This document shows, in pieces, positions 4,992-9,165 of a DNA stretch of 60,906 nucleotides. The stretch comes from Pirellulales bacterium. GTDB lineage: Bacteria; Planctomycetota; Planctomycetia; Pirellulales; Lacipirellulaceae. The DNA is taken from contig JAKVCC010000021.1 in NCBI GenBank assembly GCA_022448265.1, forward strand, positions 1-60,906. The letters are read 5' to 3'. The position numbers and the translations under genes were made by a program. The first letter of the stretch is position 1. The number at the start of each line of letters is the position of its first letter. The notes beneath the pieces were generated by a model. The model was not told the origin of the DNA. It made no database searches and saw only the letters and a list, made by a program, of their open reading frames with translations.

Positions 4992-5189
4992 TCAGACAAG
5001 CTGTACGTTTTCTGCCCTGGGGCCCTTGGGACCCTGGCCTTCGTTGTAGGAAACGCGCACGCCCTCTTGGAGTTCATCGTAACTCACACCTTCGAGATCG
5101 GAGGAGTGGAAAAAAATGTCGTTGCTGGTCCCGGTATCTATAAACCCAAAACCCTTGTCCGTTAGTCGCTTAATCGTACCTTCAGCCAT
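4992..5189 (-). CDS. Cold-shock domain protein (CspA family)
   Basis: Small single-strand nucleic-acid-binding protein acting as an RNA chaperone. The 65 residues make a single OB-fold cold-shock domain with RNP1 (KGFGFID, residues about 12-18) and RNP2 (DIFFHSSDL, about 24-32). It ends in a typical GPKGPRAENVQLV tail. The start is supported by an AGAGGAAA Shine-Dalgarno 7 bases upstream of ATG. The gene is followed by a 35-residue basic peptide and is divergent from mraZ across about 500 bases of non-coding DNA, enough for a long cold-regulated 5' leader, although I could not identify a specific cold-shock element. Confidence 0.95.
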   Translation of the reverse strand: MAEGTIKRLTDKGFGFIDTGTSNDIFFHSSDLEGVSYDELQEGVRVSYNEGQGPKGPRAENVQLV

Positions 5190-5693
5190 TTGTCCGTTTC
5201 CTCTAGAAGTGCCCTGCAGCGTTGCCTGTAAACACCGCGTCCAGGCGGCTCCGCTGCAAAGGGGCCATTCTAGCGAATATACACCGCGTATGCGATGGGC
5301 TGTCGTGCGAGTTTGTCAGAAGGGGGCTGCGATGGCCGTTTCGCGCAGCGACTGGGCGCAAATACCGCGCTCGGCGGGCCCCGTTTTTTCGATTGGCCGG
5401 CCGACCCCGACGACCCTAAATTTTCAAATTTTTGACGAAATCACTTGCAGGCTCAGGAACAAACGCTAGAATCTGCTCTATTCATGGGTACTACGCCCAT
5501 TTATGGCCTTATTTCCCCCTATTTCCGGGGAACTAAACCCTACAGAAGATAAGTTCGGGTTTTATAAGTGCCCGTTTTACGCGTGTGGATATCTCAAGAG
5601 CTTTGTTTCTCTGAGAAAGCATTTCTCCGAGCAAGCTCAGCTGCCAAGGAGGGAAGGATGCATTGCTAGGCCTACCGGCCCGCTGAGAAATTT
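5190..5693. other. Divergent csp/mraZ intergenic region
   Basis: About 500 bases without a credible gene; the open frames here overlap real genes in other frames or have no protein-like composition. A short hairpin (ATGGG-N6-CCCAT) lies near 5484-5500. Promoters for both flanking genes must lie here, but none is clear by eye. Confidence 0.4.
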
Positions 5694-6194
5694 ATGGCCA
5701 AACAGTCTCCAGTTTCGAGTGACACGCTCTATCTGGGCGAATGGTCGCGAGCACTGGACGAGCGGTTTCGGCTTTCGCTGCCAACAGAAGTGGCCGAGCA
5801 ACTCACCGGCGACGCGGACCAGTGCGTCCTGGCCAAAGAACGTCCGGGGTGTGTGAGCGTTTGGAACACGCAGGCCTGGGGGGCCTGGCTGGACGACGGA
5901 ATGAGCCTGGTCGCTCAAAAGGTTCACAGCGGCAGGCTTACGCAACGGCTAAGTCAGGTGCAGTTATTGGGACGACTACTCTCCACCCGTCATCGCCGAG
6001 TTCCCGTCGCGGCTCGGGCCAGAGTAGCCATACCAGAAAGCTTTCGGGATTTTCTCGGCGTAGATCCCGGCGGCAAGCTAATGGTCGTGGGCGCGGCAGT
6101 TTGCCTCGAGATTTGGCATCCCGCACGGTGGAGTGAGCACATCGGAGAACGAATACCGGACTTCCGTCAGCTATTCGATGAGTTGGCCGACTGA
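5694..6194 (+). CDS. mraZ: MraZ-family (SpoVT/AbrB-fold) DNA-binding regulator, divergent
   Basis: MraZ is a ring-forming transcription factor that normally heads the division and cell-wall (dcw) cluster. The 166 residues carry the two family half-sites: ALDERFRLSLPTEVAEQL (about 20-37) and AARARVAIPESFRDFLGV (about 106-123), then KLMVVGAAVCLEIWHPARW, which matches the family's second strand set. In canonical MraZ both half-sites contain D-x-x-G-R; here they read DERFR and AARAR, so the glycine is lost in both and the aspartate in the second. No rsmH, ftsI, mur or ftsZ gene follows: the next 380 bases are non-coding and then genes converge. The DNA targets may therefore differ from the usual repeats. 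Confidence 0.8.
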   Translation: MAKQSPVSSDTLYLGEWSRALDERFRLSLPTEVAEQLTGDADQCVLAKERPGCVSVWNTQAWGAWLDDGMSLVAQKVHSGRLTQRLSQVQLLGRLLSTRHRRVPVAARARVAIPESFRDFLGVDPGGKLMVVGAAVCLEIWHPARWSEHIGERIPDFRQLFDELAD

Positions 6195-6377
6195 CGGAAA
6201 AGGCATGCATGGGACCAGGAAAGACCAGCTGCGAAATTACGATAACGAATATGCAACGGCCCCCACGAGGCGATCGCCAATCCAAACCGCTAACACAACA
6301 AGCCACTAGTACCAGGCACCCATACAAACCGTCGGCACAACCGGCGAACTACAATCTGGCTGGCCACAAGCTAGTCC

Positions 6378-6507
6378 GCCATACCCAGTTGACACAATAG
6401 CCTTAATCACCCGTCCGTTGTCACCCGGTTCGGGATGCAAGTCTCACTTAGAAAGGCTATTGGGGTCGCAATGACCCGCGTATCTGTCGACTGGGTATGG
6501 CTTTTTT
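6378..6507 (+). ncRNA. Candidate structured RNA or complex terminator with three helices and a T-run
   Basis: The outer helix pairs 6378-6393 (GCCATACCCAGTTGAC) with 6486-6501 (GTCGACTGGGTATGGC), 16 bp with a single G-T wobble, followed at once by six Ts. Inside, 6395-6404 (CAATAGCCTT) pairs perfectly with 6453-6462, enclosing a CCCG-GTT-CGGG hairpin (6424-6434). Directly beside it is a GGGTC-N5-GACCC hairpin (6463-6477). That makes a closed multi-branch fold of about 124 nt. It lies between convergent mraZ and the DUF1844 gene, 184 bases past the mraZ stop. A TACAAT box at 6350-6355 could be a -10 element, without an obvious -35. I do not recognise it as tmRNA, SRP RNA, 6S or a known riboswitch. 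Confidence 0.5.
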
Positions 6508-6580
6508 ACGCGCCAGCGGGGAGCGGTGCTAGCGCAACGGGGAGCGCCATTGGAATGTAAGAGTGGCCCGGTACAGCACT

Positions 6581-7006
6581 TTAGGGGCCGCTGTCCGCCG
6601 ATTTCTCTTCAGTTCCCTGGGCTACAAATAGCATCCTGAGCTGGTGCAACAAATCAGTGAGTAGCTTTTCCTCACCAGGCTGGAGATTGCCCTTGGTTTT
6701 CGTCTGCAGCATTTCCAGCATATCAATCGCATATCGGGCATGCTCCGGGTTGACAGACACCTGCTGCGTCGCAGGGTGAGGAAACTGGCCCAGAGCGACC
6801 ATCGCTTCGGTGGCAAGCGTTGAAAGCAGCAATTCCAACGAGGCAGGTGGCATTTTCCCGCCGGAAGTGGCCCCATCCCCAGTGGCCTCAGGGCTAGACG
6901 CTGACCCAGATTCGGGCTGCTGCACTTCTTGTTTGAGAGCTTCTTTCTCTGCGGCGACCTGGCTCTTCCAATCGTCGTCGATAAAGATCTTTTTTTCGTC
7001 GTTCAT
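6581..7006 (-). CDS. DUF1844 protein
   Basis: Conserved protein of unknown function, 141 residues, no membrane segment. Residues 1-50 are charged and low-complexity (KKIFIDDDWKSQV, then a Gly/Ser/Ala linker). The DUF1844 core follows: LELLLSTLATEAMVALGQFPHP, then EHARYAIDMLEMLQTKTKGNL and a closing LLxxLLHQLRMLFV helix. The start has a strong GAGGAGG Shine-Dalgarno. It lies 28 bases downstream of pyrG on the same strand and is probably co-transcribed. The role is unknown; the link with pyrG is only positional. Confidence 0.8.
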   Translation of the reverse strand: MNDEKKIFIDDDWKSQVAAEKEALKQEVQQPESGSASSPEATGDGATSGGKMPPASLELLLSTLATEAMVALGQFPHPATQQVSVNPEHARYAIDMLEMLQTKTKGNLQPGEEKLLTDLLHQLRMLFVAQGTEEKSADSGP

Positions 7007-7034
7007 TGAGGCCTCCTCTCCACTTAATCGATGG

Positions 7035-9165
<2,131 letters not shown>

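Follow-up and report, generated by a model that had tools for sequence, protein, structure and literature searches.

A conserved structured RNA behind mraZ in Pirellulales, with candidate CsrA-type sites in many of its members

What is encoded in the short gap between mraZ and a convergent DUF1844 gene in a member of the Pirellulales? The window analysed here was the whole 60,906-nt contig JAKVCC010000021.1 (assembly GCA_022448265.1). A first-pass annotation had placed in this gap a compact multi-helix element of no recognised class, which it read as a stable small RNA, a regulatory 3' element of mraZ or a riboswitch-like fold; conservation and compensatory base changes in relatives had been set in advance as checks. 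The conserved core, the family-wide linkage to mraZ and the CsrA-type hairpin described below all emerge from those relatives and lie beyond that first view of a single sequence.

Place and fold of the element

The location was as first described: mraZ (MraZ, PF02381, 6.2e-11) lies upstream on the same strand at 5694..6194 (+) and the convergent DUF1844 gene (PF08899, 1.2e-24) at 6581..7006 (-). The structured RNA between them extends over 6378..6501 (+), being 124 nt long without its U-run. It is closed by an outer helix P1, formed by 6378..6394 (GCCATACCCAGTTGACA) and 6485..6501 (TGTCGACTGGGTATGGC); its single G-U wobble had been recognised, while the length, initially given as 16 bp, was read here from the sequence as 17 bp. 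The nested inner helix P2 (6395..6404, CAATAGCCTT, with 6453..6462) displayed the perfect 10-bp pairing already noted. Inside it, the small hairpin reported earlier was found at 6410..6434 and is termed P3 or core hairpin (CCCG-U-CCG-UUGUCACC-CGG-UU-CGGG). Its loop UUGUCACC occupies 6418..6425 and is followed by a conserved AUGCAAGUC (6435..6443), which is unpaired in the structure of alignment A1 (see below). The second hairpin, P4, was likewise present at 6463..6477 (GGGTC-GCAAT-GACCC) and its loop, GCAAU in this copy, is devoid of GGA. The six Ts (TTTTTT, 6502..6507) follow P1 at once, as previously stated, so that positions 6485-6507 combine a G+C-rich helix with an immediate U-run, the usual make-up of an intrinsic terminator tail. 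The element was not flagged by a terminator scan restricted to short loops.

Predicted folding of the plus strand (6370-6515) gave -62.6 kcal/mol, against a shuffle mean of -39.6 (sd 3.7; z -6.2), and none of 200 shuffles was equally good. The minus strand (6365-6515) reached z -4.5, again with 0 out of 200 shuffles equally good.

Relatives and distribution

When 59 genomes, including that of the window, were searched at DNA level with the element, 20 others were matched at E < 1e-3, in one place each. The core was best conserved, with 34-47 nt at 91-95 % identity in six genomes of other genera; one core match was exact (37/37 nt, G027) and three further genomes displayed 81-86 %. Eleven of the 20 sequences, selected for a cleanly aligning inner helix, were aligned with MAFFT (alignment A1) and used to build a covariance model, R1, with a match cut-off of E 0.01. 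R1 matched 32 out of 43 genomes of the window's family (Lacipirellulaceae) and 64 out of 296 genomes of the order Pirellulales, always once per matched genome; no match was obtained in the remaining 11 family genomes. All 64 loci were then aligned to R1 (alignment A3), three weak extra matches being omitted (L042, +; L081, -; L059, 475-554, -), and A3 served to build model R2. Among 396 order genomes at least 85 % complete, 115 were matched by R2 at E 0.01, one match per matched genome, and 281 were not. Class-wide, 31 of 248 genomes were matched, every one within the order, and phylum-wide the only match in 244 genomes was the window's own. As search filters were strict, the genome counts of both models are lower bounds. 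The conservation asked for beforehand is thus present at the level of family and order. Across the 64 loci the element measured 104-143 nt. It was also found in Adhaeretor mobilis HG15A2 (L146; Lacipirellulaceae, Pirellulales), in Aeoliella straminimaris (L158) and in many Pirellulales MAGs. A set of 102 distinct homologues, composed of 63 named and 39 further loci, was used for the counts given below.

Loci without an R2 match were considered separately. In 16 out of 30 of them a related long helix with a U-run tail lay behind mraZ and beat all 15 shuffles of its own sequence, against a chance expectation of about two in 30; 13 of the 16 enclosed ANGGA. The 14 other loci displayed no such helix behind mraZ. 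One further locus was too short for this test, and L123 was excluded on account of a reading frame running to the locus end. Positive loci included Planctomicrobium (L203, Planctomycetales) together with L117 and L118, that is two of the five class-level loci tested. On the basis of synteny and shape, and not of a model match, the element is probably not confined to the order Pirellulales.

Selection on structure and strand

The compensatory changes looked for in the helices were also found. In A1, 18 out of 39 pairs varied on both sides; shuffling gave 8.1 +/- 1.8, and none of 500 shuffles reached the observed value. The 18 pairs comprised 11 of the 17 pairs of P1, on both its arms, and three of the ten pairs of P2. 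The core hairpin P3 was mostly invariant and consequently displayed little covariation of its own. In A3, 38 out of 39 pairs varied on both sides, 86.0 % of cells were paired (66.5 % in shuffles) and the covariation score was 0.518, against 0.064-0.088 for slid controls. A3, having been fitted to the model, is biased towards it; A1 was not fitted, although its rows had been picked for clean alignment.

Two asymmetries point to the plus strand as the one carrying the RNA. Outer-helix cells of A3 contained 93 G-U against 10 A-C combinations (202 against 94 for all helices), and at least five Ts among the 10 nt directly following the helix were counted in 91 of the 102 homologues in forward orientation, against 33 of 102 in reverse. 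The helices are under selection as plus-strand RNA, and since the U-run is usual at the end of the RNA, the closing helix P1 doubles as its terminator.

CsrA-type sites in many relatives

In many relatives P4 resembles GGC-ACGGAU-GCC, its loop corresponding to the ANGGAN hexaloop of CsrA-type sites. A hexaloop ANGGAX placed directly on a stem has been described as the high-affinity consensus of CsrA/RsmE, the hcnA site having ACGGAU as its loop (PMC4005645). Two or more ANGGA 3' of the core were found in 48 of the 102 homologues (shuffle mean 3.5, maximum 12 in 200 shuffles), a count that takes the 3' half of the RNA where the anchor motif is absent, and an ANGGAN hexaloop hairpin in 45 (shuffle mean 1.6, maximum six); because the sequences are related and the shuffles ignore relatedness, these counts are not independent events. 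Setting aside the 15 anchorless rows, two or more ANGGA remained in 36 out of 87 homologues. In another 36 of the 102 there was none 3' of the core (15 more being without anchor). Among 64 hairpin-loop motifs of the form ANxyzN within 320 nt behind mraZ, ANGGAN ranked first, being present in 55 of 95 loci, followed by a motif with 18 (median five); some of these hairpins lie outside the RNA, the window is among the 40 loci without one, and L123 was excluded. As judged from these motifs, paired sites of CsrA type are shown for many relatives.

The window's own copy departs from this pattern. It contains no ANGGA and a single GGA (6433), which reaches into P3, and it lacks the several ANGGA/GGA sites, some of them on hairpins, by which CsrA-sequestering RNAs are characterised. 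Within its genus, ANGGA 3' of the core was kept in just three of 13 loci. CsrA binding cannot, for this reason, be the universal function of the RNA.

CsrA itself was detected in all 15 genomes tested, with four to 17 matches each, six of them in the window's genome (G000). This exceeds the one or few copies usually found per genome elsewhere. The best match of the window's genome (L134) has kept L4 and R44, residues with a role in RNA binding.

The conserved core and possible base pairing

GUCACC, in the loop of P3, was found in 76 of the 102 homologues and GCAAG, within the adjoining unpaired stretch, in 79; 67 had both GUCACC and CAAG. By eye, a second GUCACC follows AUGCAAG in many relatives. 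A loop-to-tail pseudoknot between UUGU (loop) and GCAA is possible: 97.7 % of its cells were paired, but two of its four pairs were invariant and none changed on both sides, leaving it without covariation support.

Such a core could act mainly as a base-pairing seed, its GUCACC segments blocking GGUGA-type ribosome sites of mRNAs. These segments resemble the anti-Shine-Dalgarno end of 16S rRNA, and both the preservation of the loop motif and its second copy agree with pairing of this kind, as do single start-proximal matches to GGGTGACAAC, the perfect 10-nt complement of the core loop region (for instance L263 in G000 and L299 in G001). Against it, GGGTGACAAC was matched 94 times in 10 relatives, seven times at the RNA's own locus and 87 times elsewhere, while the reversed control gave 75 matches. 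No recurrent start-codon target was apparent by eye among the 87, and the matches that did recur by eye (L232/L254, L258/L273 and L223/L249) all sit within coding sequence. We regard a seed as the main role of the core as rather unlikely; it can be compatible with the explanation preferred below.

Longer complements were also noticed. L234, L248 (behind recA in G011) and L305 each contain 16-17 nt that are complementary to the core throughout, in stretches that appear to be intergenic. The exact complement of the core hairpin, CCGGGTGACAACGG, is part of a short hairpin in these loci, and by eye those of L248 and L305 lie just 5' of terminator-like hairpins. With E 0.15-0.58 per genome they are near chance, and sponge or target sites are possible readings of them.

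Genomic setting

In 61 of the 64 loci mraZ was found upstream on the same strand as the RNA. The exceptions were L046, in which 37 nt separate the start of the RNA from a contig end, and L051 and L054, both from genus g12. In the genomes of the latter two (G024 and G032), mraZ was undetected genome-wide with either the window's MraZ protein or PF02381, and the RNA was kept beside DUF1844; by eye, a divergent ketosynthase-like gene lies upstream of it. When the search was started from mraZ, 63 out of 80 named loci displayed a plus-strand R2 match 9-274 nt past the stop codon (median 50); this number leaves aside eight weak reverse-strand matches and includes four with E 0.015-0.027. Genomes with mraZ and without any model match included G049, G072 and G051, and neither the RNA nor MraZ was detected in six genomes with a completeness of 95 % or more (G040, G055, G092, G118, G138 and G141). 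Downstream, 37 of the 64 loci had DUF1844, convergent in every case, and in the other 27 it was not found. The classical division cluster is not known from these bacteria. A sigma-70-like promoter was not detected in 5500-7300, where 0.6 would be expected by chance, so its absence says little. Further upstream, at 4992-5189 (-), a 65-aa ORF resembles a cold-shock protein by eye.

This arrangement raises the question of whether the RNA is simply a cis element of mraZ, that is a 3' UTR structure terminating and stabilising its mRNA, perhaps with feedback, and having no independent life. The position directly behind mraZ on the same strand, with gaps down to 9 nt, the U-run terminator and the joint absence of RNA and MraZ from six genomes would all be accounted for. 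A terminator or stabiliser has no need of the conserved loop sequence, however, and the CsrA-type sites would be left unexplained. The two genomes without detectable mraZ also speak against it; as both are about 93 % complete, mraZ could sit in a gap, though not at the locus itself. A cis element in this strict form seems to us improbable, if still worth weighing, and the mraZ 3' element of the first-pass annotation is weakened in its pure form by these two genomes. Among its three options, the stable small RNA fits best as far as sequence comparison can tell.

The third option, a riboswitch-like element with a ligand pocket inside a terminator, would match the conserved internal core closed by a terminator helix. 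The next genes downstream in the window (DUF1844 and the following gene) are on the minus strand, and DUF1844 is convergent wherever it was found, 27 loci being unassigned. Since the RNA has a terminator of its own at its end and DUF1844, where found, lies on the opposite strand, this option is very unlikely. An ordinary bidirectional terminator, for which an inverted repeat with a U-run between convergent genes would speak, is barely credible given the conserved interior sequence and helices, which already disfavour it, and a U-run that is mostly one-sided.

Comparison with known RNAs

The statement that no known class could be recognised was borne out as far as Rfam 15 goes, which gave no match in the window at gathering score, and none at the RNA in 12 loci with E up to 5. 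The only match there, to Acido-Lenti-1, was located about 870 nt from the RNA in L017 (2442-2486, 39.6 bits).

A MITE or other repeat was rejected: the window's genome contains a single full copy, its other matches being 14-24 nt long, and each matched genome gave one match at E 0.01. 6S RNA (RF00013) was likewise rejected. It shares a long closed fold with the element but is found at other places: three out of ten genomes matched 6S, each time elsewhere, and none of these was the window's genome. Matches in G446 and G495 were over the cut-off and that in G036 just below (L129, L130, L131); they belong to two class-level planctomycetes and to one genome of the order (G036). A published account reports 6S to be absent from some Pirellulales (PMC5673643).

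One close likeness is to CsrB/CsrC and RsmX/Y/Z. Many members share with them the ANGGAN hexaloop hairpin with a further GGA site and a terminator of their own, and CsrA is present in every genome tested. The members differ in having mostly at most two ANGGA 3' of the core, a single compact closed fold and a conserved core that is not of GGA type; from the window's copy ANGGA is wholly absent. McaS and GadY are base-pairing RNAs reported to bind CsrA (PMC7652899). By description and not by sequence, they suggest a possible double role, with GGA sites next to a conserved loop segment, although base pairing is without support for the mraZ-linked RNA. UpsM of Rhodobacter sphaeroides is also terminator-ended and tied to mraZ, but its source is the 5' leader that precedes this gene, whereas the planctomycete RNA lies behind it; UpsM is described as exclusive to Rhodobacteraceae (PMC5089854). 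The Rhodopirellula-1 motif is a candidate RNA listed for Planctomycetes and, unlike the present one, also for Proteobacteria, in a table row without Rfam number, whose description served as the only basis of comparison (PMC2864571). The element is a real RNA family, conserved in many Pirellulales and without Rfam counterpart, Rhodopirellula-1 having been compared by description only.

Among the best-ranked titles and abstracts of the open-licence literature, no report of an RNA behind mraZ in planctomycetes was found.

Proposed function

The explanation that we favour, at even confidence, is a conserved small RNA with a regulatory role, which would ancestrally have bound CsrA and whose core would make a second contact; this is inferred from sequence and its comparison. 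The RNA would accumulate as a stable, trans-acting transcript from the plus strand behind mraZ, being either derived from the mraZ mRNA or initiated at a separate promoter. Its pair of GGA sites would dock a CsrA dimer and withhold CsrA from mRNAs, an action like that of CsrB, RsmZ or McaS, although another protein could read the same ANGGAN loop. The GUCACC/AUGCAAGUC core would provide the second contact, a more universal one, whose partner would be an RNA or a protein. Since the window's copy is without an ANGGA site, this core contact is the only one that can remain in its organism.

For the group as a whole we tentatively picture, with confidence somewhat short of even, an ancient small RNA of Planctomycetia behind mraZ, acting as a CsrA antagonist amid many CsrA paralogues. 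The window's genus would have mostly shed the CsrA sites and kept a separate function of the core. A well-supported and testable RNA family is thereby added to a group for which almost no small-RNA literature was found. It is linked to mraZ in planctomycetes, and it offers a candidate partner RNA for their many CsrA copies.
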